From the NCBI GenBank assembly GCA_030770425.1, contig JASJFT010000156.1:43600-107599 (forward strand): a stretch of DNA of 64,000 bases. Reading direction: 5' to 3'. The notes under the pieces are model-generated. The model was not told the origin of the DNA. It saw nothing but the letters and a program-made list of their open reading frames with translations, and ran no database searches. Within the stretch, counting starts at the first letter, position 1. The number at the start of each line of letters is the position of its first letter. A program made the position numbers and the translations under genes. Shown here piece by piece: positions 4,337 to 28,085 of the stretch. Source of the DNA: Darksidea phi. Taxonomy: Eukaryota; Ascomycota; Dothideomycetes; Pleosporales; Lentitheciaceae.

Positions 4337-6094
4337 CTAGAGCTGTCCGCAGAGCTCATCCAGAGGGATGGCAACTTTGTCGTAGAAATCCACTGCAGTG
4401 ACCGGCTGTTCTAGATTTAGACACCAATCCACGACGTCTTTGTACTTGGTCCCTACTCTGTACGCCAGCTCATACTTCACCCTAATCATGAGCCTTCTTT
4501 TCAGTTCAAACGCTTCGGCCTCGTGAAAACGGTCCATCTTCGGCCACAGAGCCACGGTCTGCGCTTTCTCAGGCTTAGCCTTGAGAAAGTCCATCATCGG
4601 TCCCCAAACCGCGATCTCGAAAAGCACCACACCAAGGGAGTAGATGTCATAGTGAATCTGGTAACCGGACGCTGCTTCGCCTTGATAGTGCGGATGCCGG
4701 TAGAGAGCTGCTTCGAGGTCATTGAGAACTTTGCCTCGGTCGATGGTTTGAGCTTGGGTTAGTTGGCGGGAGTAGTTGAAACCTTGCACTAAGGCTTTCT
4801 GGATCGAAGGGAAGGCCGGGGCAGAAGTGGGAGATTGAACGTGCGGGAAGATGATGTTGGTGCTGTTGATGCCTTTGTGCATCCAGTTGCCACCGTAGAG
4901 GCGGGCGAACGTGTCGACTAGCCGTTTCGCCAATTTGCAGCGCGCCTCGAGAGCGGGTTTCGAGGGCAAGGACAAGAGACTTCGAAGGGAAAGAGGCTGG
5001 CTCGCTCTCAATTCACCAAACTCTAGTGGACCTAGGGGGAACCGGAAGACGATCCACCAGCAGTGATAGTCGGGGTCGTCTACGTAGCCTAGAGCTTGCA
5101 GCGTATGGAGGTGTCGTTGCGCACCTGTTCCGCCAAGGAGCGAGACGAGCTGGCGGACGCGCTCTTTCAAAACGTCTTTGAGGGATTCGGGGATGTTCGT
5201 GTCGTACTCTTTCTTTTCGAACAGATAGGCGACTCCAGGGTCGATGCGGCCTTTCTTCAGGAACCGGGTCTGAGAGCGGTCTTCTGCAGTGCCGCCGGTG
5301 ATGCTCCAATCCTCGGCTTCCGCTCCGCTCGCGCCGATTGATGGGGCTCTCTGAAGCGGTATAGCTTTCCATTGCGCAAGGGCGTGAATGTCTACTTGGG
5401 AGAAGTCTTGTTGGTTCCACCCGGAAGAACGTCCAAGCTCGGAAAGAGCGCCTGGTTGTGACAAGCCTCGGATGATGTCTAGTGCAAGACGGGTTCCTTC
5501 TTGTCGAATTTCCTTCCTTTCTCCCTCAACCACGAATGTTTGTAGGCTCTTCACATGCTTTTCTATAGTTTCCACGAACCCTTCAAACCTCTTTTTATCT
5601 CGTATCGCCCATAGCACTCGTCGAGTGACTTTCGTCTCATTCTTCTCTGTTGGGTGCGACGAGGGTCCGCTCTCGACCAGAGCCGCTGTAGTCGTCTCCC
5701 CTTTAGCCTTCATGATGGACACCAGGCTACGCCTCATTTGCGCGACAGTTTCGCTCCTCTTGTTTTTGTCCGATCCCTCTGGTCCCTTGACGACGAGCCC
5801 ATACTTTGTCCCCTCGCGCTCCACTTCCACAACCAGATCGCGTATGCGTGTCAATGTCCGCGCGATTAGCTCTTCGAACGGCACCAAGGTATCAGCCAGC
5901 TCACCCTGCGTGAGACCAGCCTTCGCAGCCCAAATTCCGAGATGCGCTTTCACCGTTTCGAGACGGATGACGAGATCCTCGGTATCCTTGTCAAAGCTGA
6001 TGGTGTCGTCAAGCGTCTTCCATGCTATAATCGCGGCTTGGAAGACAATGGGCACTACGCCCGCGGCTACACCGACGACATCGAGTCCGGACAT
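4337..6094 (-). CDS. HeLo domain protein with C-terminal pseudokinase
   Basis: Single exon, 585 aa. Residues 1 to about 190 match the HeLo (prion-inhibition and propagation, HET-S N-terminal) fold: a hydrophobic first helix (GVAAGVVPIVFQAAIIAW), then RLETVKAHLGIW and a late helix (RFEGFVETIEKHVKSLQ). HeLo domains are membrane-permeabilising cell-death effectors in fungi. The C-terminal half is a degenerate protein kinase: the catalytic loop reads HKGINSTN rather than HRDxxxxN and no DFG is visible, but YDIYSLGVVLFEI (subdomain IX) is intact. A HeLo four-helix bundle before a pseudokinase resembles animal MLKL. It diverges from the kinase-ankyrin gene at 6329 across 234 bp. No C-terminal amyloid motif is obvious. 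Confidence 0.85.
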   Translation of the reverse strand: MSGLDVVGVAAGVVPIVFQAAIIAWKTLDDTISFDKDTEDLVIRLETVKAHLGIWAAKAGLTQGELADTLVPFEELIARTLTRIRDLVVEVEREGTKYGLVVKGPEGSDKNKRSETVAQMRRSLVSIMKAKGETTTAALVESGPSSHPTEKNETKVTRRVLWAIRDKKRFEGFVETIEKHVKSLQTFVVEGERKEIRQEGTRLALDIIRGLSQPGALSELGRSSGWNQQDFSQVDIHALAQWKAIPLQRAPSIGASGAEAEDWSITGGTAEDRSQTRFLKKGRIDPGVAYLFEKKEYDTNIPESLKDVLKERVRQLVSLLGGTGAQRHLHTLQALGYVDDPDYHCWWIVFRFPLGPLEFGELRASQPLSLRSLLSLPSKPALEARCKLAKRLVDTFARLYGGNWMHKGINSTNIIFPHVQSPTSAPAFPSIQKALVQGFNYSRQLTQAQTIDRGKVLNDLEAALYRHPHYQGEAASGYQIHYDIYSLGVVLFEIAVWGPMMDFLKAKPEKAQTVALWPKMDRFHEAEAFELKRRLMIRVKYELAYRVGTKYKDVVDWCLNLEQPVTAVDFYDKVAIPLDELCGQL

Positions 6095-6328
6095 GATTAG
6101 GGAGAATTCGTTCCATGGTACGAAGAACGCGGGTGGTGCAAGGACCTATGGAGGGGCACGACAGGGCGAGGCGAGACGAGACCGGCATTATGGCTTCGTA
6201 CTAGTCGAATTAGGTTGGGTTTATCGAAGTAGCCTTGGCAGCTGAGGCATGCATCCCGTCAACCTCCAGCGCAGCCTGATCAACACAGTGCCTTCCATGT
6301 CCGACACAACCCGGGCAATCACTTAGAC
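6095..6328. promoter_or_regulatory. Shared divergent promoter region (HeLo-pseudokinase / kinase-ankyrin)
   Basis: Only 234 bp separate the two divergent start codons (6094 minus, 6329 plus), so the promoters must overlap or abut and the genes are plausibly co-expressed. No TATA box or named factor site is evident by eye. Confidence 0.5.
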
Positions 6329-9300
6329 ATGGACGAATTCGAATGGGTCAGGTCCTTCGCGACATCGAGTTACGGAACAATCAGCGATGTGCTAGTTCCG
6401 CCACAAAGCGATTGTGATACAGCGCCTTCACCCCCAAATTCGCCCCCATCGCGCGGCTCGTTTGCATCTTTCGTCTGCCATGTAAGTAACCCCGCGATAC
6501 AAGCCGCATTTCTTATACCAGATTTGTTTGTTGAGCTGGAAATTACCTTCCATTTGGCAAATAAAGTAGCTTCTCTGGCTGCAACAATATGCCCTGACAC
6601 CCCTGCTGGACGAGCTTTACTCAGTTTGTACCCCAACTAGGTGGTCAGTCTGGAGAAGAGACTGCGGTCTTTCTCGCCCATCGTCTTGGACGGCTCCTCG
6701 GTTGTGAAAGAAACTGGCAAGATTTTGGGCGAAGGGACTACGTTTATGGTGAGACATGCTCAATGGATGAAAGATCCCAACGAACCGCCTCTCGACGTCG
6801 CCTTGAAAGAGATCATTGCAGACGTCCGATCGTTGGATGGACCTTCGTCCAACGCTATCCACCGACGTCAGAGCGACTGGAAAGATATTCTCTTCGAACT
6901 ACGCGCTCTCCTTCACGAGCCAATCCGCTATCATCCCAACTTGGTCCGGCTTCTAGGAATACAATGGGGGCTTTCGCCCATGTCTGAGTCCGCATACCCT
7001 ATGCTTATCATGGAGTATGGGTCGCTTGGTACCTTCAACGCTCTCCAAGCATCCTCCGAATCGCTATCCTTTCCCATCAAGCAAAAGCTCTGCTACGATG
7101 TCGGAAAAGCACTGTCCGCGCTGCACGCATGTGGTATTGTTCATGGAGATGTGAAACACGAAAATGTGCTTATCTTTCCGTCTAAAAAGCCCTTCAACAG
7201 TCTTCCATACACTGCAAAGCTAGCAGACTTCGGCGGCACCGTTATGGACATGGTATACACAGAGTCCCGCGTAATGGAAACATGGACATGGCCATTTCAA
7301 GCCCCCGAAGTCACGGATCGCCAGCGTCTGACTAGGAGCGGGATGATGCTTACTGATACGTACTCGTTTGGCCTTCTTCTTTGGAGAGCGTTTATGGATG
7401 GCGAGGGCTTTTTAACTCTCCCCGGAGCTGCGCAGATTGCTTCTGATCAAGACAAACGCTATTTGAGTGACCAGAAGGCTTCGAATGACTTCACCAGCAC
7501 CGCAATTACCGACATAACCAAGTATGCGAGCAAACGAGGCATCTCACAGGCCTGTATCGATCTGTTCACATATGCGATACTTCATACTGTGCAGTTAAAG
7601 CCGGAGAATCGAAACTTAGTCAAAGCACAAGCGGCGCTGAGAGGTATAAAGTAGGTTGTAGATGTCCTCTACACAGTGTTCCGCTGATTCCTACAGGCCA
7701 GGCCATATCTTTAGATATTTGAGTTTCATTCAGGAAAAGAACGATGAACGGGTGGCAACTGAAGCCCGACTTGCTCCAGTAAGTCACCGAGGCTGCTTGG
7801 CCCTAGGTTAACCATCACCAGGGTCAACATGGGATCACGCGAGACAACCTGTCATTCATGCTTGGACGCTGGGGTGATGATGTAGACCTGCAAGATAACA
7901 TGTACTTGAAACTGCCTTTTGTACGCGTTACCACGCTGACCATTCTTAGGCCGGGCAACCGTCCCCAATTAGACGAGCCAAACCCAGAAGACTTCTCGTT
8001 CGAGCCTCAGGATCTGAAAAAGATTCTGACTTGGAATCAGCAGCATCAAATGCTCGAGGAAATGAAAGACGCTGCCAGTAACACTGCGAGTCCCGCCGGT
8101 GGTGTTTTGGAGATGAAGAAGACTGTGGCTGCGTTCTACGTATTTCAGTGCTATCTCCTCGAGTTTGGCACCACATTCGATGCAAACGAGGCTATACAGT
8201 GGTTACAGATGGCTTCTGGGGACGATAATAGTCATGAAGATGCGGACTACTTCGCTCAAGCTTGGCTTTGGCGGGTCGCACGTGCACTGGGTACTAACTT
8301 TAATATTGATACAGACCGGTTACATGGATTGCTTCGCCTTTCTGCAATGCGAGGTCATCGTACGTGCCTCCAGGATATAGTTGATCTCGCAGAGAGTAGC
8401 AGCAATACTGCGTTGAAAGAACGGTGGCTTAACGCTCACCGGCAATCTCGACACATCCTATTATCACAGATGGGCGCAGTAGGAATGGGCTACTTCTTTT
8501 CTTCCTTCATGACACCGCCTTGGCACGAAGTGAATCTCAACGATCTCGCTCAACTAGATGGAGCCATCCGGACAATACTTGGCAGGGACTTTGAATCATG
8601 TTTGAAGTCCTCTTCCTCTAGTCAACTGGGAACCCCCTCGCAAGCAAGCCGAGACCGAGAGAAAACTGCATTCGATCACATTTACGTTAACCGACGAGGC
8701 CATGGGCCTTTACACTATGCTGCCGCATGCGGTACGATCGGTGCTCTCCGACATATGATCACCACGTACAAATGCGATATAGACCTTGAAAACCGGCACG
8801 TTGATGAAACACCTCTCCTATGCGCTGCCGAAGGCGGTAAGCTTACATGCGCACTTTTTCTGCTTGACAACGGAGCTGATCCCAACGGTTACCGGTTCGG
8901 CCAAGAAGGGCCGCTTCATTGGCTATGCAGCTTTTTGCCCGATGAGATGGAAACAATAGCCTCTAGACTTGTTGCTGCTGGAGCTGATATGGAGTTGCGC
9001 TCTGGTGGGATGCGCCATGATGTCCGCGGCATCCGAGCGGACTGGGAGCATGTATTTGAGATCCGAACAACACCGCTTGGTCGAGCCGTTTTGATGAACA
9101 ATCTGGATGCAGTCAAAGTGCTCCTGAAATTGGGCGCTGATCCACTCACAAAGAGCGCGAACAAACACCCTGGGGAGTGGGAAGGGTTGGAGAACATGTC
9201 CAAGATGATCGATGTCTCGTCGCCGTTCGAGCTTGCCGCTGTATTGGCTTTGCCCGAAATTCTCGCCGCGTTTATCACGCATATTGACGGGCCCGGTGGT

Positions 9301-10852
9301 ATACCTAGGCTCAAGCTTATTGACGAGATGTCCATGCTCAATCTCGCGCATGGGAAAAAAGTTACCGCGTACGTGACGTGCCCCTAAGCTCAGTACTGAC
9401 ATCACTTTGGATAAGCTTTGCTGACTTGGTTCCCCCGCGTTTAGGTTCGATCCACTCTCTTTGCAGAGCCGCCTTGTCCGTAGCGGAGTGAATCACAAGC
9501 GCAACTTGCAGAGCACTCTCGCGTTGCTCTACGCCCGGGGCCTCAACTTCCATGGCGCCGCTGGCGATGAGTTACAAAAACAACGAAGCACGGTGATGTG
9601 CAAAGAAGTGGAGTTGGGTAATCTGGATGTGGTAGAGTGCCTTCTCGCACTCGGCTACGGTGCCGATGGGACGCAACATTTCCGACCACTGGAAAAAGCT
9701 GTCGAGGTCAACCACGTGGCTATGTTCCATCTGTTAAGGCGTTACAACGCAGATGCAACAGTCACTCGAATGACGCCTACCGGTGCCATATCGCTACTCC
9801 ACGTTTGCGCATCTCGACCGCGACAATCGAGGCCTGGACGCGCTATTGCAGACGCACTTATAGCAGCTGGAGTGCCGTTAGAAAGCACCGATGTACGGAG
9901 CAGATCGCCGCTTGCGACGGCGGCTCTGAACCACAACTTCGATGTTGCTACAGCGCTCATTGAGAACGGAGCAAATGTCAACGCAACCTATCCGCTCCAG
10001 GTATATGGCCCCACGGGGACCGAGACCAAAACTGTCAGCGTTCTTGTAGAAATTCTCTCTCAACATACGATGCGCGCCCTCGAATCACTAAAGTTTCTCT
10101 TCAACCAATACAAGAGTGGGTCGGCCCCGCGACCAGCTTTCCACATCGACCCGATAAACAAATTCTCCATCCTCCACCTTCTAGCCGGGAGCCCCCAGTA
10201 TACGCATATTGCACAGATCACGCCAAAGATCTTGAACTTGTGTCTGGAGACGTACTCGGAACATGAGCTTATCAATTACAAACATCCAATTGTAGGGACG
10301 CCGTTGTACTATGCTGCTGCGAACGGACATAAGGCAATGGTGGAGCGGCTTCTTGAACATGGCGCGGATGCGACATACAACGCTGGGCCAGATGTTAACG
10401 ATTCAGTACAGAACCTACTACGGCCTAGAGAAACTTGGACGCCGCTCTGGGCGGCAATCTTGCGGCTAGACGATGAACTGAAGAGGGGCACTTTATTTCC
10501 ACCCGCTGGACTTCCTGGAGCCTGGCTCAACTCCAACATGATCCAGAACTTGGAAAAGATCGTTGAATTGCTGTTGGAGCACGATAATGACCCCACCGCT
10601 CGGCAGGCCATCGGGCGCCTTGAACAACGTAAATTGTCGCTGGTTGCTGAAGCGCGGGCTTGGAAGGACGATTTGGTGAACAAAAAGAGAGAAATGAAGG
10701 CAAGCCAGGATGAGCAGCCGTTTGATCTGGGCCTGCTGTCGGGTGGGAGCAACGAGAAAGACGAGGAACGGATACGGGAGATTTGCGCGGGCCCGGAGGA
10801 GGAGTGGAGGACGCACGAGCTTGAACAATACTTGCACGCTCTAAAGCTGTAA
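6329..10852 (+). CDS. Protein kinase-ankyrin repeat fusion protein
   Basis: Five exons (6329-6481, 6641-7643, 7702-7778, 7822-9368, 9445-10852) give 1395 aa; introns are 159, 58, 43 and 76 nt. A short low-complexity N-terminus precedes a kinase domain (about residues 60-380) with a glycine-rich loop (LGEGTTFMV), VALKE lysine, HGDVKHENVL catalytic loop and DFGGT, so it looks catalytically competent. Residues 400-690 form a helical linker of no named family. Ankyrin repeats run over about 700-900 and 980-1240 (for example GPLHYAAACG, ETPLLCAAEGG, GTPLYYAAANGHKAMVERLL), ending in a charged coiled tail. The first intron is the least certain because its only in-frame stop is the TAG at its acceptor. 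The order kinase-then-ankyrin resembles animal RIPK4/ANKK1, probably by convergence. Confidence 0.82.
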
Positions 10853-11218
10853 CTCGGAAGCCTAGGCATAAAACGGGGAGCTCTGACGGCCTGCGCCACA
10901 AAAGAGTGGCGCAGCTTCCATATTCGGTTAGCACAAATGACTCATAATGTATCACAGGAAAACAAGGCGCACACCTCGATGAAGAGTCATCAGCGCACCG
11001 GCATAGGTAACAATGTGAAGCAGAGTGCTGCGGAGTTCTTTTAAGATGTTCATGCATGATCTATAAAGATCGGTGAGAGTCCTACATCGGCTTTGGCAAA
11101 ATACATTCTTGACCAACGCCTTCGCGCAACTTCAGGACGCCTCTGTTCCCTTCATATCCCTTTTATTACCCATTTCCGGCTCCATAGTAGTATATATATG
11201 CGCAGCGATTTCAAATCC
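10853..11218. other. Intergenic region upstream of RNA-processing fusion gene
   Basis: No gene seen. A TATATATATG stretch at 11191-11200 sits just before the chosen ATG. It may act as a core promoter element, or its ATG at 11198 may be an alternative start in the same frame. Confidence 0.4.
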
Positions 11219-14200
11219 ATGGCGACCAGCACTCCAACACCGCCTTCGACATCCCTGTCAACAACCTCTTACGACACGGCGCTCTGCGTTATCCCACCAC
11301 AAGATCAATGTCTTGACATTGATAAGCTTCGATCGCTATACGATAAGGCGTACGAGAAATGGCCCCCTCACGTCAATATAGTCTATCCGTTTGTCGCGCC
11401 AGAAAGCCTTCCGCGGGCAAAATCCCAGATCGAATCACTTCTCAGCAACTTCGGCCACCTCAAAGCGCTTAGAGTAACCTTGGATCAACCGGGCCACTTT
11501 GAGCATCGAAACAACAGCACTATCTACCTTCGCGAAAGTTTGGACCCCTCTCAGAGCGCTCTAGAAATACTCCGGTCCGCTGTGCTTCGTGCAGTAGGAC
11601 AAGAACCCACTCCGTGTAACTTTCACCTCACAGTGGGGCAATCGGAGGAGGAGAGTGAATCTACTCGTGGCTTTCTTCTGAACAAAGCACGGCTACTTCC
11701 TGCATTGACTTTTGAGATCGGCGCACTCGCCATTCTCGTTCGCGAGCGAAGTGCTGGCGCGGTCGGCAGGATGAAGCTTTGGGGCACCATTGATCTTCCA
11801 TGCCCTCAAACCTCAAGTGGCATCCGGATGCCAGAGTTCTGGCTACAAAATGAAGATTCCGAGCTCATGCAATCTGTTCTAGGAGACGAGGAGACGAAAG
11901 ACGGCGCATTGCGTCCTTCATTTTCACGTCGGGTACAGCCAGGAACAACCTACCACTTCAACCCAAATACCAAATTGTGGTCTCCAGCACCTTTCTCTAC
12001 GCATGAAGAGCCGAGTCTAACTTCCTTAAGCATCTCCAGCTACAACGTGTTAATCGACTCCGAATACCCTCCAGCGCGAGATCGGGACCCATTACTAATT
12101 GGCACAATCCTCTCCGACGATGCACTTGCGGATGTTCTTGTTCTGCAAGAGGTTTCGGACGATTTTCTCTCGTCCTTGCTTGCTGAAGACGAGATACGGC
12201 GACGGTATCCGTACACTTCGCATGGACCACCTTTTCAGTCTGACATTGGCCCTCTCCCAAGCCTGCGGAACGTCATCATTCTCAGCAAATGGAATTTTAG
12301 ATGGGAGTTTGTACCCTTTCATCGGCGTCATAAAGGAGCGGTTGTAGCTACCTTTTCCTCGGTCGATGAAGAGGCGCTACCGTTCGTTGTGGCCGGCGTT
12401 CATTTGACGTGCGGATTGACCGACGGCTCTGTTGCGGCGAAGAAAGTGCAGTTAGACAACCTCATGGACCACCTCAAGCGACAATATCCCTCAAATCCTT
12501 GGATCGTTGCTGGCGACTTCAATATTACTACTTCAAAATACACCATCGAAGAAGCAGTGAAGAACAAATCAATCTCGCAGCAAACAGTTAGGACTCTAGA
12601 GGCTATCGAGACAGATATGTCTGAAGCCGCTCTACTTGACACCTGGGCTGTGGCCCGTGTAGAGGGTGCTGGCGATTTTGAGACCATGGATCCGAACGAC
12701 TTATTCGAAGGTGAAGAGGGCGCAACCTTCAACCCACGCGAGAACGCACTCGCAGCTGCGACTTCAGGGACCTCGAACAATAGACCTCAGCGGTACGACC
12801 GAGTCATGGTTCGCTCTCAAGGCCGTTTTGACGTCACTAGTTTCCGTCATTTCGGATTACCAGCGACCGTTGAGGGCGTCACTTCAGTACCTAGTGATCA
12901 CTTTGGCATTCACACCTCGTTCAATGTCCGCCGTGGCTGGCCTCAACAGTCTGCAGAGAGCCCAGATCTTTTCAAACGTTTTCCGGTAGAGCACCGCTGT
13001 GCTCCACTATCTCTATCGAGTTCCCGCAATCTACTGGAGACGTTGGCGAGGCGGTCAGTCTTCCCGACGTCGGAGGAAGAGCAGAGCTACAAAGATGCCT
13101 TAACTCTGATTAAAGATGTTCTAGTTGGCTCGTCGAGTGACGAAGACTCAACTGTGTCCGATGTTCCAATGGTTATTGTTCCAGTCGGCTCATACGCTCT
13201 TGGTGTCTGGACCACCACGTCTGATATTGACTGCCTTTGCATCGGCTCCATTAGCTCCAAAACTTTCTTTAGATTGGCAATTCAGCGCCTCCGCAGGGCT
13301 CAGTCCCAAGGAGTGCGGCTCCTTCGTATGGTGCGCGCCAATACTGGCACCATGCTTGAGCTATCCATCAACGGAGTTAACATGGACCTGCAATACTGCC
13401 CAGCGGCGAGTGTTGTCCAAAGGTAAGTCGTATGGTTCGACGGCAAGATTTTGCTAACATACTCCTAGATGGAATGAGTTCCATAGCCTACATCCTTCAG
13501 ACCCCGTTTTCAATCTTGCAATGCTTTCACTTCGCAAACTGAAACCCATTCGCGACCTTAACTACATTCAACGAACTATCCCCTCTATGGCATCTTTTCG
13601 CTTGGCGTACCACTTCATCAAACTTTGGGCTGTCGAGCGCGGTATTTACTCAGCGAAGTTCGGATACCTTAGCGGTATCCACATAACACTGATGTTGTCC
13701 TGGGTATGCAAACGGTTGGCTCACGACGCTGGATTGGTAAGTGCCGGTGACCTCGTCATCTCCTTCTTCCATCACTACGCAAACTTCGACTGGAAGCACG
13801 ACATGGTGTTCGACGCTTTCTTCCACAAGAAGATGCCACGGTATCAGCGAAGCGCGCGGGAGCCGATGGCGATTCTTGGCTTCCATGCACCGAACTCGAA
13901 TATTGCACACACGGCTACTACACCCGGGCTGCAGGTGCTAATAAACGAGCTCAAGCGTGCTGATGAGCGCTTGTCCGCATCGGAAATGACATGGGATAGC
14001 TTTTTCAACCACCATGCGGACGCCGGAACAAATTATTTCCTTACCGCATATGAAAGCTACGTCAAGATCGACATCCAGTATTGGGGTCGAGCAGTGTCTA
14101 AGGGCAGGGGCCTCGTTGGATGGGTGGAATCGCGCTGTATTAATCTTGTTGTCGATATTCACAGAGCTCTGCCATATCTTTCCGTTCGGATTTGGCCAGC

Positions 14201-14924
14201 CCGGTTCGCCAGCAGCGATGCGAACGACACCGAAACGTATTATCATGGTTGCTACCTCATCGGTCTATCGCGCAATAGAGATAGTGATCTATCTGCGACC
14301 AAGGAGGATCGGGCGCATGCTAAGAATGCGATCGAGAAGACATTTGAGCGATTCCTCAGCCAAGTGCAGGCAGATGAGAAGTACTTCGATCAGAGTTCGT
14401 CCTGGATCGGCGTTTCACTTGCCAAACCGTCGGAGGTGAAGAGTTTGAAACTAGACGACCGAGAATGGGGCGACAACATTATGGACATCGAGCCAGATTC
14501 CGATGACGAAGACGAGCCCATCGACTCCGACGAATCAACCGACGCCCAAGCATCGCGCAAACGTTCCATTGTCCGCCCTGCATCCCCATTATCCAGCCAA
14601 ACACCCGTCTCAACAAGCAAACTTCGCCCCGCCTCAGACGTACTCAATCGTCTCCGCTGGGATCCGAGCCTTGATCCTAGCGATTACATTGTTGGATACG
14701 AAGATCGTTTTTTGGGCACAAAAGAGACGAGCTTGGAAAGGTGGAAGACAGAGCAGACGGACGAGGAGTTTATTCCTCAGCATCGTATTTTGTATTTCAA
14801 AAAGAGGGGCGATGGGTCGGGGCAAATCGTTTGGGAGAGGAAAACGAGGGTAGATAAGATATTTGGGAGTGGAGTAGGCAGCGGGGATGGGGGTAGCGGT
14901 GGCGCGGCCGTGAACGACGCGTAG
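11219..14924 (+). CDS. Four-domain RNA end-processing fusion: 2H phosphoesterase, EEP nuclease, poly(A) polymerase-like, MJ1316/DUF504
   Basis: Exons 11219-13422 and 13469-14924 (46-nt intron with GCTAAC branch) give 1219 aa. Domains in order: a 2H phosphoesterase/2'-5' RNA-ligase-like fold (about residues 45-200; HVNIVYPF and HLTVGQ); an endonuclease-exonuclease-phosphatase fold (about 265-575; SSYNVLID, VLQEVS, GDFN, SDHFG); a poly(A)-polymerase-type nucleotidyltransferase with helical domain (about 620-1050; GSYALG followed by DID); an acidic linker; and an MJ1316/DUF504 domain (about 1125-1205; DVLNRLRWDP, HRILYFKKRGDG). The MJ1316 domain is proposed to recognise cyclic-phosphate RNA ends, so a role in repair or editing of cleaved RNA fits all four. 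ATG 11219 (CCATGG context) was chosen over 11198. Confidence 0.85.
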
Positions 14925-21082: not shown

Positions 21083-24000
21083 TCAAGAAAGATGTATTGT
21101 GCGGCGCTCAAGTGTGTGGCCCGCAAGTGTGCAACACAACTTTAGGACGCCAATGCGCTCCCAGCGCCGCTCCGCCTGGTCCGTCGGCTGCACCTCCTCC
21201 ACGACGAGCACAGTAGACTCCATCCTCTGGTCTTGGCGGGGGGCAAGACGCAGCATGATGCCCAGCCACCGCTGGGAAAGGAGTCGCTTCCGGAATCCAG
21301 GAGTTGTGCCGGGCTCGTTTTCCGGGAGATACGCATCTTCCCGCGTGGGGAAAAAGCCGCCCTCCCATATGCTGTTGCCAAGCGTCACGGTGCCGATAAA
21401 GGCGAAGGGGTTCGTGCAGTCGTGTGTCGTGATTTTCTCGCGGATCTGGATCGACACCACAGGTGCCGTGATGGCGAGGACGTAATGCTGCAGCAGATAC
21501 TTTTCGTCTGTTCCGGCCACCAAAGCGTCGTAAAAGTTAGTCCAAGAAACCGTAGCCGCCGCCGTGCCACTTTGGGCCTGTGCTGGGATGACGACGGATA
21601 TGCTGACGTCGGCTGGGACGATCCAGATGCGTTCGAGACGCCTGAAATCGTACGAACGGCGATCCCTTCTCTGTTGGACAATGCCAGTCCAGCCGGTCCA
21701 TGACCAGCTAGGGAATCCCGGGCGTCGGCACGCCGGCAGTTTCAGCCGCCAGAAAAGGCCGTGGACCAGGCCGGCAAGGGTGCCCACTCTGCGGTTCGCG
21801 GCCTGCTGCACGTCCTTCCACGAGTCCCAGGCCTCGTGATCCTTAACTATTATGATGGCCGCAATGGAATCTGTGCCGAGGGGGCGGCTGTCCCAGCGGG
21901 ACGGGTCACTTTCATGATCGTCTTTGCCGTCTTTGCCGGCACCGGCAGCGACACGCTTGACACCAAGATCGCCGTAGCCATCGCTGTCGCCATCATTGCC
22001 ATCCGCCTTCTCCCCCACAGGAATGACAGGCACGCCGCAGAGGTGATGGAGGCCGCCTTCTTTGCGCTGGGCGTAGGCACGGAAGATGCCCAGCATGGCG
22101 TTGAGTGCGTCCGCCGAGCACGTCAGGCGGCGGGCCGTGTATTCTTGCAGTATGTAGAACAGGCGCCAGCCAGACCTAAACATCTGCGGCTCCAGGTGCG
22201 TCGAGGAGTCGTAGTTGGTGTGGAGTGGTTGATGGACGGCCTCACGGCGGGTGTAGTCCATGCCGCATTCAAACGACATCTCGCAGTCGGAGAAGAAGAG
22301 TCGCCGGCGGGCCATCAGACCCTCCTGATAGGTCCAGCCGCGCGTCCACCATGTCGACGACGACCGGACATGGTGGGCCGGATGCGGCGGGATCACAGTG
22401 AGCGCGTGGCCGTGGACGCGGACGCAAGGCCACCCCGTCCGGGGCCGTCCTGGGACACCGGGCAAACCGGCTGTGGCGTCCTTTCCGGCCGCCGCCACGA
22501 GTGTCACCTCGGCGTTGGTGTAGACCAGATCCATGGCTCGCAGTTGTGCTCGCTTCACGGCAGCATCTCCCTGCTGGACGACGCAGTACTGGTCCACCCA
22601 GAGGTGGTCGTAGCCCAGCGCGAGCGTCGTGTCGATGGCGTCTTGGATCACAGCCGGCAGAGCGTCCAGTACTAATTGCTGCGTCCCGACATTCCGGTCT
22701 CCCTGGTTGCCCTGTCCCCACACATAACTCAAGGCTACGTACGGGGGAACTGATGGTGGTGATTCCTCACTCCCCTGCCCCAGCGTCACAATCTTCCCCG
22801 TGGCACACTCGACAAGGCGGAAATGGGGGATCGTGTGGAGTTGGTGCCGTGTGCATGGCTCCGAGGTGTGATGCTTCCGGCAGTGGGCGATCCAGTCCTT
22901 GGCCAGCTCTAAGTCGACAAAGGGGCGGGCGGCCTGCGGCGAAATAGTCAAGGCCTGGCTGCCGTAGGGACAGTTGGACCCCAGGCGGCCGATAGTGGTG
23001 GCCTCGAAAATGTGCGGGCGATAGTCCTGCCAAATGGAGATATGCTGGTCAAATCCGCTGTCTGCATAATGTTCGCTGTCCTCTTGGTGCAACACGGCCA
23101 GGACCTTAGTATCGATCCAGTTCTCGCTCCAGTTGGAGTCAGGCGTGCCGAACCACGTGGTCCCAAACGCCTTGAGCACGCACGACCGGCTGTCCTCGGC
23201 CGTCCGGCCGTCTCGGTGACCCGGACGGGCGGCGGCGATCAATCGACACATGCCGCAAGGGCGGAACTCCCAGCTCGCGTCCACGCGGCCGAGATCGACA
23301 CTGCTCCCTGCTTGGGAGAAGAGGCTGTCGAGGTCCAGAGCCGCGCATCGGGGGCACAGGTCTGCGTCGCCGTCATCTACATTCCCGTACGCGTCTTGTT
23401 CGCCGAGAGGCAGCAGGCTGTCCTTGCCGTCCCGATAGTCATCCCAGTCCCAAAATCTGTGGTGGTTTATGTTGTAGACGTCGCGCGACTTTCGTGGGAC
23501 ATTGGTCTCTTCCGTGGCGTCCTTGCCAACCAAAACACCAAACGCCGTGTTGCTGTCGCCCGTGGCGCCCCGTGAACGGAGCAGCGCCATGCTCATTGTG
23601 TCGCCATATGCTTTGGCGACGGTCATGGCCGTGCAACCGTTCCGGTCCGTCTGGTGGACGTCGAGATCGTCCCGCGCGATGAGCAGCTGCACCATGCTGC
23701 CGCTGCAGCCATGTCGGAGAACCGCGTGCATCAGGGGCGTCATGCCATCGGCATCTCGTGCATTGGGGTCGACTTCCTTCCTGCTCAAAAGATGCCGCAC
23801 CGCGTCGAGTCGCATGTTGATAATGTCCGACCCACCCACCGTGGATGCGATCGCCCATGATAGAGGCCTGCGTCCGGTCGCATCTTTCGTGTCAGCTCTG
23901 ACTCCGTCCATAGCGAGAAGCATGTTTACGACGTCCGCGTTTCCATACTCCGCTGCCACCGACAATGGCGTCCGCCCCTTGGCGTCTTCCATGTCCGGAT

Positions 24001-25492
24001 AGCCCCGGTTCGTCGCACCGAGCAAAAGCTTCATAAGATGCGCCGCTTTCTTATAACCCGTACGGGGATGTGACTTTGTTCGAGCCGCCTCATGGTACGG
24101 GGTTACGCCTGCCGCATTCTGATGACCTGGATTGGCGCCCGGGACGGCCAGAAGCCTTTCCACCATGTCTGTAAGGGACATTCTAACTGCAGCTGCCAGT
24201 GCGGTCTGTCCACGCGCGTCTACCCGGTTGGGATCTATTTTAGGATGCGCGAGAAGCAAATTTATTGTCTTTTCTCGGAAGTAATCGAAGGTCAGAATGA
24301 GCGGTACGTGTTTCCCCTGGCCGTTCGGGTCTGTATCGGGATGTTCTAAGATAACCTCGACCACATCAACTTGTCCTTCGGAGGTGGCGTGGCACAGTGG
24401 CGTCATCCCGTTGTTATCCACCGAATTTGGGTCGACTCGACCTGTACTGAGCAGCTGCCTGGCTGTGACCGCGCCCCAAGCACCCCTCGCGGCATGGGAG
24501 AGCGGCGTTCTCCCCTCGTTGTCCGGGCAGTCGGGGTCGATTTGGTCGTCCCGCAACAGCTCTTCGACATAGGCCGTTTGTCTCCATCCAGCTGCCTCTG
24601 ACAGAAGCGTCTGCCCCTCATCATTCACATAATGCATGTTGAATCTGCCGTCGGCCACCAGCACCCGCACAAGTTCAGAGGTTTGGTGGCAGTTGATGCA
24701 GGTCAGTATATCATCCATGCACGGTTGGATTCTCTTGTGGGCGAGTAACAAGCGTGCAGCAGCTGCCTGGTCGCTTTGTATTGCCCTCATCAGCGGCCGG
24801 CCTCTGTACTTGTCCGGATCGTTGGGGTCAACGCCGTGGTCCGTGAGCAGCGCCTCCACGAGCCGCGTGCTCCCCGACTGGACGGCAGCGACGAGCAGGT
24901 CGCTACCTTGTTGGCCGGTTCCAAACTTGTCCAGCAATATCAAGGCTGCGTCTTCGTTTTTGTATTGTATAGCCAGTTTCAAAGCATTACCATGCTCATG
25001 CGGGACAAAAGGATCGACGCCATCCACCTGCGACAACATCACAGCCACGTCATGAAGTCTCTTGGTCAAATCTGCATTGTGATGTAGACCATCCAAAGCA
25101 ATGGAGAGAGCAGTCGACCCTGCGGAGATTCGATACGTTACTTTTATCGCGTTCCAGTTGAACATACGGTCACAGTCAATCAGCTGGCGCACGACAATCA
25201 TGTGGCCCTTGTTGGTGGCTTCCCAGAGAGGCGTCGACCCAGAAAGGTCCTCGAGGTTGGGATTCGCGCCGCTACCCAGAAGCTGGGTAACAACTTTGCT
25301 GTGGCCCCCTTCTGCTGCGAGCAACAAGGGTGTACGTCCTTTGTGGTCGCGGATGTTGATATCTACGACCTTGTCCGCCAGGAGTGTGTCCACCACGTTT
25401 TCGTCGCCAGCCTCTGCAGCTCGCGAGAGTGGTGTCTGGCCGTCATTGTCCTGGCCGTTGATGTCGTAGTCGCGTTCAAGTACAGGATTCAT
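21083..25492 (-). CDS. Ankyrin repeat-HET domain protein
   Basis: Single uninterrupted frame of 1469 aa from the ATG at 25492; the frame stays open 33 codons further but only to a GTG. Residues 15-650 are a long ankyrin array (for example DGQTPLSRAAEAGDENVV, GRTPLLLAAEGGHSKVV), about 17 repeats by eye. A cysteine-bearing linker follows (CPRCAALDLDSL, CGMCRLIAAA). A HET domain lies at about 915-1070 with the canonical blocks YVALSYVWG, LGYDHLWVDQYCVVQQ and NAEVTLVAAAGKDATAGLPG. HET proteins trigger heterokaryon incompatibility or cell death; ankyrins are the likely recognition part. It is much more GC-rich than its flanks, is intronless, and lies between transposon relics, so horizontal or transposition-linked origin is possible. 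Confidence 0.88.
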   Translation of the reverse strand: MNPVLERDYDINGQDNDGQTPLSRAAEAGDENVVDTLLADKVVDINIRDHKGRTPLLLAAEGGHSKVVTQLLGSGANPNLEDLSGSTPLWEATNKGHMIVVRQLIDCDRMFNWNAIKVTYRISAGSTALSIALDGLHHNADLTKRLHDVAVMLSQVDGVDPFVPHEHGNALKLAIQYKNEDAALILLDKFGTGQQGSDLLVAAVQSGSTRLVEALLTDHGVDPNDPDKYRGRPLMRAIQSDQAAAARLLLAHKRIQPCMDDILTCINCHQTSELVRVLVADGRFNMHYVNDEGQTLLSEAAGWRQTAYVEELLRDDQIDPDCPDNEGRTPLSHAARGAWGAVTARQLLSTGRVDPNSVDNNGMTPLCHATSEGQVDVVEVILEHPDTDPNGQGKHVPLILTFDYFREKTINLLLAHPKIDPNRVDARGQTALAAAVRMSLTDMVERLLAVPGANPGHQNAAGVTPYHEAARTKSHPRTGYKKAAHLMKLLLGATNRGYPDMEDAKGRTPLSVAAEYGNADVVNMLLAMDGVRADTKDATGRRPLSWAIASTVGGSDIINMRLDAVRHLLSRKEVDPNARDADGMTPLMHAVLRHGCSGSMVQLLIARDDLDVHQTDRNGCTAMTVAKAYGDTMSMALLRSRGATGDSNTAFGVLVGKDATEETNVPRKSRDVYNINHHRFWDWDDYRDGKDSLLPLGEQDAYGNVDDGDADLCPRCAALDLDSLFSQAGSSVDLGRVDASWEFRPCGMCRLIAAARPGHRDGRTAEDSRSCVLKAFGTTWFGTPDSNWSENWIDTKVLAVLHQEDSEHYADSGFDQHISIWQDYRPHIFEATTIGRLGSNCPYGSQALTISPQAARPFVDLELAKDWIAHCRKHHTSEPCTRHQLHTIPHFRLVECATGKIVTLGQGSEESPPSVPPYVALSYVWGQGNQGDRNVGTQQLVLDALPAVIQDAIDTTLALGYDHLWVDQYCVVQQGDAAVKRAQLRAMDLVYTNAEVTLVAAAGKDATAGLPGVPGRPRTGWPCVRVHGHALTVIPPHPAHHVRSSSTWWTRGWTYQEGLMARRRLFFSDCEMSFECGMDYTRREAVHQPLHTNYDSSTHLEPQMFRSGWRLFYILQEYTARRLTCSADALNAMLGIFRAYAQRKEGGLHHLCGVPVIPVGEKADGNDGDSDGYGDLGVKRVAAGAGKDGKDDHESDPSRWDSRPLGTDSIAAIIIVKDHEAWDSWKDVQQAANRRVGTLAGLVHGLFWRLKLPACRRPGFPSWSWTGWTGIVQQRRDRRSYDFRRLERIWIVPADVSISVVIPAQAQSGTAAATVSWTNFYDALVAGTDEKYLLQHYVLAITAPVVSIQIREKITTHDCTNPFAFIGTVTLGNSIWEGGFFPTREDAYLPENEPGTTPGFRKRLLSQRWLGIMLRLAPRQDQRMESTVLVVEEVQPTDQAERRWERIGVLKLCCTLAGHTLERRTIHLS

Positions 25493-26231: not shown

Positions 26232-28085
26232 TAACGTGTTTACGTAGCGAGTGGCCATTCTAAGCGAGTGGCCACCCTCATCAACTTTTCGCGACGCGTT
26301 ACCTATCAACTCTCATGGCTCAACCAACTACTATTCGATTGCCCTGCAACGAAGCAGATATCTCCCTAGCCATCTCAGCTATCGATCAGAATCAGATCCA
26401 GAGCGTTCAACGCGCTGCAGCAACGTTTAACGTCCCCCGATCAACGCTGCGCGACCGACGCGCTGGAATCGCTGCGCGACGCGATTGCCCGCCCAAATCA
26501 AGGAAGCTTTCTGAGCTAGAGGAGGAGGTGGTTATTAGCTATATACTCGACCTGGATTCGCGAGGATATGCCCCCACACTAGAGGCTGTGCGAGATATGG
26601 CGAATAGACTGCTCACTGCGCGCGGCGCTGAGCAGGTAGGCAGAGACTGGCCTAGAAACTTCGTCCAGCGAACTGATAGCGTCAAAACACGATTTAATCG
26701 ACCCTACGATCGACAGCGAGCTCTCTGCGAGGATCCTGATATTATTCGAACCTGGTTTGACCGAGTAGCGCGTACTAAGGCTACCTGGGGTATTACTAAT
26801 CAGGATATCTACAACTTCGACGAAGCTGGCTTCCTGATGGGCAAGATATCAGCGCGACTAGTCGTTACTGGCTTAGAGAGACGCGGGCAGGCTAAAGCTA
26901 TCCAGCCAGGCAATCGCGAGTGGGTTACTATAATACAAGGAATCAACGCTACTGGATGGGCTATTCCGCCCTTCGTTATCTTCGCTGGTAAGCACCACCT
27001 CTCTACCTGGTACGAGAGCGATATGCCAGGCGATTGGGCTATCGCTGTTAGTGATAACGGCTGGACGAATAATAATCTAGGAGTTGCCTGGCTAAAGCAC
27101 TTTATCAGGTATACGACAGATCGTAGAGTAGGCGCGCGCCAGCTACTAATTCTTAATGGCCATGGTAGTTATATCTCGAACGAATTCCAGGACCTCTGTA
27201 AGGAGAATAATATCTACGCTCTCTATATACCAGCTCATTCGTTACACCTCCTACAGCCGCTTGATATAGGCTGTTTCTCGCCGTTGAAGCGCGCGTATGG
27301 GGATCAGATCAATAGCCTGATTCGTAATCATATCTACTATATCACGAAGCTAGAATTCCTACCCGCCTTCCGCGCAGCCTATAATAAGGCTATTATAGAG
27401 AAGAATATCTACGCGAGCTTTCGAGGCGCTAGCCTAGTTCTACACGATCTAGAGGTAGTGATCTCGAGGCTCGATATCAAGCTGAGGACGCCGTCGCTAG
27501 TAGCCCTACCAGAGGCTGTATGGGAGGCCAGAACACCAAGCAACGCGCACGAAGTAGAGGCTCAATCAACGTTAATTCGTGAGCGCGTACGTAGGCACAA
27601 GAGTTCGTCGCCTACTTCTATCATTATAGCTATCGATCAGCTAAGGAAAGGCGCTGAGGTGATGGCTCATGAAGCTGTGTTCATACGCGAACGAATCGCG
27701 AGCCTAGAGAAGGCAATCGAGGCCGCCACAACGCGCAGAAAGCGTAAAAAGAAGAGGATCCAGAAGCAGGGCGTCCTAACCAAGGTAGAGGGGGAGGCTA
27801 TTATTATTCAAAAGGCTGCTGAGCAGCAGCAAGAGAACGAAAGACGTCAAGTTGCTGGGCAATCAGGTGTGAGCCGACAGGCTTCAGCGCGCTGCACGCG
27901 CTGCAGAGAACCTGGGCATAACTCACGAACGTGTAAGAAGGCTACTGTAGATACTACTTGATTCAGAATAGCTATTATATTGATAGATTTCTGATGCGTT
28001 GTTGAACTACGTGGCTTTTTAGGTGTAGAAAGTTGGTGGGGTTCGCAGCTTACTTATATTCGCAGCATGCTTATAAAACACGTTA
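26232..28085 (+). mobile_element. Fot1/pogo-type (Tc1-mariner) DNA transposon
   Basis: A transposase gene is framed by terminal inverted repeats: left 26234-26288 and right 28029-28083, both 55 bp, matching at about 36 of 55 positions by hand alignment, with outermost ends ACGTGTTT and AAACACGT. Each is flanked by TA (26232-26233 and 28084-28085), the expected target duplication. The left arm contains the motif GAGTGGCCA twice, hinting at subterminal transposase-binding repeats. The divergence of the arms suggests an old copy. Confidence 0.78.
26315..27961 (+). CDS. DDE transposase (Fot1/pogo family), catalytic residue altered
   Basis: Uninterrupted 548 aa. An N-terminal helix-turn-helix (VQRAAATFNVPRSTLRDR) is followed by a CENP-B-like DNA-binding part and a DDE core: first acidic residue in YNFDEAGF, third in LLQPLDIGCFSPLK. 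The second position reads LLILNGHGSY where the family has LDGHGSH, so the catalytic Asp is Asn and the next His is Tyr. Both changes are C:G to T:A transitions, as RIP would give. The C-terminus ends in a CCHC-like knuckle (CTRCREPGHNSRTC). Despite the full-length frame the enzyme is probably dead. Confidence 0.9.
   Translation: MAQPTTIRLPCNEADISLAISAIDQNQIQSVQRAAATFNVPRSTLRDRRAGIAARRDCPPKSRKLSELEEEVVISYILDLDSRGYAPTLEAVRDMANRLLTARGAEQVGRDWPRNFVQRTDSVKTRFNRPYDRQRALCEDPDIIRTWFDRVARTKATWGITNQDIYNFDEAGFLMGKISARLVVTGLERRGQAKAIQPGNREWVTIIQGINATGWAIPPFVIFAGKHHLSTWYESDMPGDWAIAVSDNGWTNNNLGVAWLKHFIRYTTDRRVGARQLLILNGHGSYISNEFQDLCKENNIYALYIPAHSLHLLQPLDIGCFSPLKRAYGDQINSLIRNHIYYITKLEFLPAFRAAYNKAIIEKNIYASFRGASLVLHDLEVVISRLDIKLRTPSLVALPEAVWEARTPSNAHEVEAQSTLIRERVRRHKSSSPTSIIIAIDQLRKGAEVMAHEAVFIRERIASLEKAIEAATTRRKRKKKRIQKQGVLTKVEGEAIIIQKAAEQQQENERRQVAGQSGVSRQASARCTRCREPGHNSRTCKKATVDTT

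Follow-up and report, generated by a model that had tools for sequence, protein, structure and literature searches.

In the Darksidea phi genome, a gene encoding a HeLo domain followed by a pseudokinase (gene A) lies divergently to a gene encoding a kinase with ankyrin repeats (gene B), their start codons 234 bp apart within the 64,000-nucleotide stretch that was analysed (the window). In other ascomycetes, too, this executor-type gene recurrently stands beside the enzyme-repeat sensor-type gene, as in two-gene death clusters. We lean slightly towards the view that A and B form a two-gene fungal death module resembling a contracted necroptosis pathway. The features of the locus are as follows.

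4337..6094, minus strand: gene A, HeLo-pseudokinase, candidate executor (ORF of 585 aa, one exon; Pfam; 68 homologues listed, 67 aligned)
5504..6073, minus strand: HeLo domain PF14479, gene A residues 8-197 (E 4.4e-19)
6023..6079, minus strand: N-terminal hydrophobic helix of gene A, residues 6-24, candidate membrane helix (mean Kyte-Doolittle 2.35 over 19 residues)
4340..5347, minus strand: pseudokinase domain of gene A, about residues 250-585, DUF7580-like
4847..4885, minus strand: degenerate catalytic loop of gene A, WMHKGINSTNIIF, residues 404-416, HRD Asp replaced by Gly (homologue alignment)
4733..4783, minus strand: GFN in place of DFG in gene A, then an activation-loop-like stretch with S442, T446 and T450, residues 438-454
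6095..6328, no strand: divergent upstream region common to genes A and B, 234 bp
6329..10852, plus strand: gene B, kinase, helical (weakly Sel1-like) region and ankyrin repeats, candidate receptor kinase (1,399 aa, five exons; splice model backed by orthologues)
6329..6481, plus strand: gene B exon 1 (splice model, orthologues)
6641..7650, plus strand: gene B exon 2, with the kinase domain from about 6728, including VALK, HGD and DFG (PF00069, E 1e-18)
7697..7778, plus strand: gene B exon 3 (splice model)
7822..9368, plus strand: gene B exon 4, with the intermediate region (about 7864-8721) and the first ankyrin repeats (Ank_2, E 9e-18)
9445..10852, plus strand: gene B exon 5, with more ankyrin repeats and the C-terminal tail (Ank_2, E 4.7e-17)

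A HET-domain gene is also found about 10 kb from the pair.

Domains and catalytic motifs of the two proteins

Pfam, the structure model and the fold search together place a helical bundle before a pseudokinase in gene A, which is the MLKL-type order. PF14479 scored 69.6 bits against the gene A protein (curated cut-off 23.2), the match running from profile position 5, and it matched 61 of the 62 members of the A alignment. When the A profile was compared with the PDB, the best match was the HeLo structure of HET-s (2wvo, E 4.8e-11, profile positions 5-190). The predicted HeLo fold is drawn from sequence, because the kinase fold filled the structure-search lists; residues 1-10 of the gene A model are of low confidence. 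The preliminary description had made the cell-death reading depend on a membrane-helix pattern in the alignment to PF14479, and a candidate for this pattern is present in gene A, residues 6-24 having a hydropathy of 2.35. Among close homologues of A, six N-terminally incomplete sequences having been left out beforehand, the N-terminal helix had a hydropathy of at least 1.6 in 43 of 62, while the control, residues 41-200, had a median of 0.81 and a maximum of 1.87. None of the 37 sequences in a wider A-like clade (clade 2) reached 1.6 at the N terminus. A is named here as a candidate for permeabilising membranes.

The kinase-like part of A has lost both catalytic aspartates in all 66 readable homologues (67 were aligned, one of them gapped): the catalytic-loop Asp is Gly, Ser or Asn in 66/66 and DFG is GF-x in 66/66. 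Together with the PF14479 match (E 4.4e-19), this bears out the earlier claim of a HeLo domain and a pseudokinase in MLKL order. Serine or threonine is found at each of positions 442, 446 and 450 in 66/66 homologues, at what we take to be the loop position where MLKL is activated; the model has low pLDDT at 446-457. Lys295 is present in 67/67 and, from its place in model strand 289-296, is probably the beta-3 Lys. The best kinase-like match of the A profile in the PDB was MLKL (E 3e-4, over only 61 residues), with the GFE of MLKL aligned on GFN. In structure searches RAF, KSR and receptor-type kinases topped the fold lists and RIPK1 was also among the nearest folds; MLKL was absent from the 50 matches shown per list, which does not exclude it.

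Gene B looks, from its motifs and nearest folds, like an active kinase of the TKL kind. Among 26 orthologues, HGD is kept in 25, the VAIK Lys in 24 and DFG in 24, the sequences without a motif having gaps there, apart from one DFD. The nearest kinase was LRRK2, with RIPK1 lower in the list and CTR1 also among the 34 chains listed; all three are, we presume, TKL kinases. The active-looking kinase-ankyrin neighbour described at the outset therefore stands, with intact VALK, HGD and DFG, Ank_2 matches and a distance of 234 bp. The Sel1 match of the helical region is weak (E 0.11, in orthologue P0069). Conservation of the ankyrin part, the putative sensor, is 0.55-0.88 per 50 residues among orthologues, about level with the kinase, the sequences compared including near-identical ones from Alternaria, and the sensor part of B is unlike a typical fast-changing allorecognition sensor. 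No NACHT or NB-ARC match was obtained with Pfam in the pieces of B or in orthologues P0069 and P0091, and B has no P-loop pattern. A simple pattern for the RHIM core, as distinct from a profile, found none in A and B other than one chance-like match inside the B kinase.

Linkage and shared inheritance

We took A and B to share a contig where their contigs were of equal size. By this measure, 29 of 105 A-like sequences lie on the contig of one of the 120 B-like sequences listed, six further A contigs being within 50 bases of the size of a B contig, yet unequal. The species name agrees in 25 of these 29 pairs; one or more of the other four, which are unnamed (contigs of 6,997, 35,797, 41,556 and 129,441), may agree by coincidence. 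Locus tags of A and B are consecutive in seven cases (Exophiala, Alternaria burnsii, Massarina, Paraphaeosphaeria minitans, Chaetothyriales CBS 132003, Trichoglossum and Staphylotrichum), and the species looked up belong to four ascomycete classes, Dothideomycetes, Eurotiomycetes, Sordariomycetes and Geoglossomycetes. In two same-contig pairs (DV738 and DV735) the tags are 12 and 15 apart, so that these genes are perhaps not adjacent. Orientation and distance were read in Darksidea phi alone, the other species being represented by contigs and locus tags.

A lasting link between the genes, as the preliminary description had supposed, was found wherever it could be judged with one exception: where a B-like sequence from the same assembly was listed, 25 of 26 named A sequences share its contig. 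The exception is Melanomma, where A and a 36%-identical B-like protein are on separate contigs. The 27 other named A sequences had no B sequence from the same assembly among those listed. In all, 28 of 53 named A sequences had no matching B sequence among those listed, and eight of the named genomes without a match had no B orthologue among them. Conversely, members of what we take to be the Onygenales, Blastomyces and its relatives, have B-like kinases with no A-like partner among the A sequences listed.

Tip distances in the A and B trees are strongly correlated, both for 17 pairs (r = 0.92, Mantel 0/10,000) and for 30 pairs (r = 0.98, Mantel 0/5,000). The 30-pair trees have three strongly supported conflicts, one of which involves the pair on the contig of 6,997. 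Both trees join Decorospora to Bimuria, and a Pleosporaceae clade of Decorospora and Alternaria was rejected under a mixture model for A (p 0.0004) and for B (p 6e-6), in a test chosen after the first tree had been seen. Because the trees agree and both reject the expected family clade of Decorospora, we conclude that A and B are inherited together. Old paired paralogues could give the same tree picture as transfer. We do not claim transfer into Chaetothyriales: the A data reject Pleosporales as one clade (p 0.0005, 0.0007), whereas the B data do not (p 0.07, 0.30).

Three other contigs of the Darksidea phi genome have a B-like kinase, and on each there is an A-like pseudokinase, with ORF edges 0.2, 3.3 and 4.3 kb apart; under independent placement, such pairing on 3/3 contigs has a chance of about 2e-7. 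In gene order and orientation these loci differ from the A-B pair, although the two types of protein are the same. The kinase is joined to ankyrin repeats on C121 and to TPR repeats, without ankyrin, on C132. Of the two kinase genes on C31, the first is a kinase with ankyrin repeats and the second gave no Pfam repeat in the two pieces scanned; a motif scan found one of the two to be without DFG. The HeLo profile of the A homologues had no match in the partner genes of these other loci, one C148 gene matching PF14479 at E 0.096. We therefore regard them as kin by their pseudokinase and kinase parts only and do not call them the same module. A HeLo-pseudokinase gene on C448 had no kinase in view nearby.

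A proposed trigger and its alternatives

That A and B work as a functional unit is very likely, and the B kinase probably acts on the A pseudokinase; a lethal outcome is slightly less assured, if still favoured. In the mechanism that we propose, B would be both receptor and trigger, its ankyrin stack sensing a cue and its kinase becoming active. B would then phosphorylate A on the loop after GFN (S442, T446 and/or T450), freeing the HeLo bundle from its pseudokinase; once released, the N-terminal helix would enter the plasma membrane, with death of the cell or of the hyphal compartment as the outcome. In its full form this would be a compact fungal necroptosis, with a RIPK-like ankyrin receptor kinase switching on an MLKL-like pseudokinase executor through phosphorylation of the post-GF-x loop. 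The two genes, divergent here, would make up a unit that two deep paired clades have kept and that is passed on, by descent or by transfer, as a whole. We offer this fuller version tentatively, at somewhat under even chances.

Alternatively, the pair may signal without killing: A would be a scaffold or allosteric pseudokinase whose HeLo domain oligomerises or sits at the membrane, and B the kinase that works with it in a pathway of stress response or development. It is common for a pseudokinase to be the allosteric partner of a kinase; RAF, KSR and RIPK1 are among the nearest folds, A and B are both conserved, ankyrin part included, and clade 2 A-like proteins have weak N-terminal hydropathy. 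We nevertheless think this reading unlikely, since a patchy co-inherited distribution is unusual for a core pathway, since the HeLo and HELL domains that have been characterised, in HET-S and in a HELL protein of Chaetomium, target membranes and act in cell death (PMC12881547), and since executor-sensor gene clusters are typical of fungal death modules (PMC10197012). The logic of the pair could also be reversed, with B restraining A, either by binding it or by phosphorylating it at an inhibitory site, in the manner of killer-and-immunity or guard pairs (an allorecognition locus included). A would then be released when B is lost or when alleles mix after hyphae fuse. Tight divergent linkage of a putative killer and its regulator fits this too, as do their co-inheritance and the HET-domain gene about 10 kb away. 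Against this, there are named genomes with A and no B orthologue among those listed, a state that could scarcely persist were B an antidote that A requires, weak as such absences are, and the loop Ser/Thr after GF-x are located where we take MLKL to be activated; we consider the reversed logic improbable. That A and B are unrelated genes, neighbours by chance or through neutral microsynteny, might be argued because many genes in compact fungal genomes form divergent pairs and because orientation and distance can be read in one genome only. This deserves very little credence, as linkage recurs in species of four classes, A and B share the same departure from the species tree, and three more loci in the same genome combine these two types of protein, differently ordered and oriented.

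If the death-module reading is correct, fungi have a phosphorylation-triggered death pair, and the step from kinase to pseudokinase that triggers necroptosis would seem either to predate animals or to have evolved on two occasions. With the recurrent pair, the kinase half of necroptosis would have a fungal counterpart that could be tested with two genes, and the pair would provide a naturally matched system in which to study how a pseudokinase restrains a membrane-killing domain.

Comparison with known death systems

The mammalian RIPK3-MLKL system joins a membrane-active helical bundle to a C-terminal pseudokinase and has a separate live kinase as partner, the plan that is predicted for A-B; MLKL and A also have in common GF-x in place of DFG, a conserved Lys in the putative beta-3 Lys strand and Ser/Thr after GF-x. 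What sets A-B apart from RIPK3-MLKL is that its genes lie side by side and are inherited together, that its kinase has ankyrin repeats and that a simple pattern finds no RHIM core. A and B are likened to MLKL and RIPK3 by predicted features, not as orthologues. RIPK4 and ANKK1 have a kinase followed by ankyrin repeats, as in B; these are animal proteins and, to our knowledge, are not encoded with an MLKL-like partner.

The architecture of A is already known from fungal HELL-kinase/pseudokinase proteins (PMC12881547), the available part of that paper naming no partner gene or kinase-ankyrin pairing. Plant MLKL-like proteins and wheat Pm13 likewise combine an MLKL-type helical domain with a kinase-like domain, with no linked kinase-ankyrin gene in the available descriptions. 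A HeLo-pseudokinase gene adjoining a kinase-ankyrin gene was not found in the literature covered, which comprised titles and abstract openings of at most 20 papers per search, with subscription papers mostly outside. The amyloid-signalled clusters HET-S/NWD2 and HELLP/PNT1 also place a HeLo-type executor beside its sensor (accessible portions of PMC10197012 and PMC5485727), but B gave no NACHT or NB-ARC match, and the C-terminal part of A is a pseudokinase instead of an amyloid motif. Fungal HeLo executors are triggered by amyloid templating from NLRs in the literature as available to us, whereas the trigger proposed for A-B would be phosphorylation. In fungal gasdermin-protease clusters of the HET-Q1/HET-Q2 type (PMC10197012), the gene for a pore-former adjoins one for an enzyme that carries ANK, TPR or WD40 repeats; A-B would have the same plan, with HeLo in place of gasdermin and a kinase in place of the protease.

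The two genes and their catalytic sites

The assembly behind the window comprises 51.35 Mb in 477 contigs, and the genes in the window are of filamentous ascomycete type. The HeLo-pseudokinase gene (A) and the kinase-ankyrin gene (B) lie as follows:

6094 to 4337, minus strand: gene A, single exon, 585 codons
6329..6481, 6641..7650, 7697..7778, 7822..9368, 9445..10852, plus strand: gene B, five modelled exons, 1,399 aa, no internal stop

Orthologues of B continue in frame across the junction of its exons 1 and 2. Pfam placed a HeLo domain in A (PF14479, residues 8-197, E 4.4e-19) and assigned its C-terminal kinase-like domain to DUF7580 (residues 363-564, E 2.9e-6). In B, Pfam recognised a kinase domain (PF00069, E 1e-18) and ankyrin repeats in two blocks; the helical stretch between kinase and ankyrin blocks gave a weak Sel1 score in one orthologue (E 0.11).

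In an alignment of 67 of 68 A homologues, the catalytic loop could be read in 66. Every one of these has Gly, Ser or Asn instead of the HRD aspartate and Gly instead of the DFG aspartate (GF-x); Lys295 of A, in the strand where the beta-3 lysine belongs, is kept in 67/67. In the wider clade of A-like proteins, 27 of 37 rows matched this pattern at both sites and 10 lacked a full match, GFD being the commonest GF-x variant and GFE occurring in three. Among 26 close B orthologues, HGD is present in 25 and the VAIK lysine and DFG in 24 each, the exceptions being gaps save for one DFD. DFG likewise occurs in 93 of 94 wider B-like rows (DFN in one), and HGD in all 82 within the twelve commonest catalytic-loop variants. 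A and B are opposite in their catalytic motifs, degenerate in one and intact in the other. With PF14479 and the lost aspartates in A and intact motifs in B, the divergent pair of a HeLo-pseudokinase and an active-looking kinase-ankyrin gene, separated by 234 bp from A to the start of B, stands as the preliminary description had it.

The N-terminal helix of A (hydropathy 2.35 over 19 residues) appears hydrophobic enough for membrane insertion. Hydropathy reached at least 1.6 in 43/62 close A rows and in 0/37 wider-clade rows, and membrane attack may therefore be a trait of only some A-like proteins. The presumed sensor part of B shows about the same conservation between species as its kinase, a pattern more in keeping with a conserved cue than with an arms race. 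Other genes lie near the pair:

11198-14924, plus strand: two ORFs directly after gene B, possibly one gene
21083-25492, minus strand: ORF of 1,469 aa, ~10 kb from the pair, combining a HET (heterokaryon incompatibility) domain with ankyrin repeats
26315-27961: Tc5-like DDE transposase ORF adjoining the HET-domain ORF

The ORFs at 11198-14924 carry 2'-5' RNA ligase-like, endonuclease/exonuclease/phosphatase, poly(A) polymerase and MJ1316 RNA-end-recognition domains, and look like an RNA-repair-like composite beside the presumed death module.

Linkage and co-inheritance

The preliminary description had looked to conserved adjacency and co-variation of the two families as a check, and recurrent linkage and correlated trees were found. 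Three protein searches supplied the two sets compared, 105 A-like rows and the best 120 of 166 B-like rows; linkage was called where an A row's contig equalled a B row's in size. On this basis 29/105 A rows were linked: 25 of 53 with a species name, A and B names being identical in all 25, and 4 of 52 without. Seven pairs have consecutive locus tags:

Consecutive locus tags of A-B pairs
LTR84_001033/001034
GT037_004884/004885
P280DRAFT_469011/469012
PMIN04_007983/007984
DV737_g4795/g4794
M1813_007502/007501
NEMBOFW57_010976/010977

Two further same-contig pairs have tags 12 and 15 apart (DV738_g3605/g3617, DV735_g3113/g3128), and in Decorospora A and B share a 14,829-base contig. Those species whose taxonomy was looked up belong to Dothideomycetes, Eurotiomycetes, Sordariomycetes and Geoglossomycetes.

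For 28 A rows with a species name there was no contig match among the best 120 of 166 B-like rows; in one, Melanomma, A and a 36%-identical B-like protein lie on different contigs of the same assembly. Seven more A-bearing genomes (Phialophora macrospora, Zopfia, Epicoccum, Lasiosphaeria ovina, Lophiotrema, Delitschia, Didymella) had no B orthologue among the matches listed, and for others (e.g. Paraphaeosphaeria sporulosa, Pyricularia grisea, Ophiocordyceps australis) the B-like row came only from another assembly or congener. These absences are weak, since the best 120 of 166 B rows were used and unmatched rows without a species name often represent short contigs. Among the A-like rows found there was no partner for the B-like kinases of Blastomyces and other Onygenales. 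A large wider kinase-ankyrin family (B-like rows P0095-P0188) also has members in Basidiomycota, Mycena and Marasmius among them; 13 of its rows share an equal-size contig with an A-like row (one match counted per A row), and for the remainder no partner was found among the 105 A-like rows.

Trees of A and B from 17 species pairs, one of them (P. sporulosa) drawn from two different assemblies, were correlated at r = 0.92 (Mantel 0/10,000) and had 10/14 splits in common, the differing splits having support of at most 0.81 where a value was given. With 30 pairs, r was 0.98 (Mantel 0/5,000) and 18/27 splits were common; the three strongly supported conflicts all concern the placement of Lasiosphaeria hispida and of an A-B pair without a species name on a 6,997-base contig. 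Because shared species history alone would also correlate the trees, it is Decorospora (Pleosporaceae) that carries the weight: it groups with Bimuria (Didymosphaeriaceae) in both trees, and constraining it to Alternaria, of its own family, was rejected under two models for A (p 0.00027 and 0.00043) and B (p 3.7e-5 and 5.9e-6), the clade having been chosen after sight of the first tree. Two histories would give this, joint movement of the pair or joint sorting of copies from an old duplication of it; under either, the A-B pair is a unit.

Related loci in the same genome

The kinase part of B (first 689 residues), searched against the D. phi assembly, has homologues on three further contigs: C121, C31 (two genes) and C132. 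All three also carry A homologues, the nearest B-like and A-like ORF edges being separated by 3.3, 0.2 and 4.3 kb, respectively. Were the 14 other A-like loci placed at random in 51.35 Mb, one such coincidence would have a probability of ~0.005 and three ~2e-7; duplication of an old pair would equally explain the co-occurrence. Behind these kinases lie ankyrin repeats (C121, and one of the two C31 genes) or TPR (C132), and repeat types are likewise swapped in fungal gasdermin proteases, according to PMC10197012. Individual loci are:

C148:1436-6997: kinase ORF, then a pseudokinase gene in tandem, a second pseudokinase gene converging
C132:5813-8161, minus strand: active-looking kinase, then DUF7580 pseudokinase, in one reading frame
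C132:12493-16182, plus strand: B-like kinase gene with TPR instead of ankyrin, divergent, 4.3 kb from C132:5813-8161
C468:171322-171992, minus strand: two HeLo matches, three in-frame stops in total

The C132:5813-8161 frame reads as a natural fusion of the two catalytic partners, and the C468 matches as either a decayed HeLo gene or an intron-containing one. The A-like partners on C31, C121, C132 and C148 have no recognisable HeLo, and no kinase was seen by eye among ORFs ~5 and 6 kb either side of a HeLo-pseudokinase on C448.

Proposed mechanism and known systems

Observed for A and B are their domains and catalytic state, their linkage and their co-inheritance. From these we infer a course of events in which B, as a receptor kinase, would sense a cue and its live kinase act as the trigger; A would be the executor, its killer domain restrained by its own pseudokinase, and phosphorylation would be followed by membrane attack by A and death. 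No description of a HeLo-pseudokinase paired with a kinase-ankyrin protein was found in the literature searched, the 2016 HELLP paper lying outside that search. The roles of receptor kinase for B and executor for A are assigned by likeness to known systems. The architecture has the same logic as MLKL and its kinase, in which a dead kinase restrains the killer domain and the trigger is a live kinase, and it resembles in the same way the two-gene death clusters known from fungi: ∼80% of fungal gasdermin genes adjoin a protease gene, often with fused ANK, TPR or WD40 repeats, as stated in the same source (PMC10197012).
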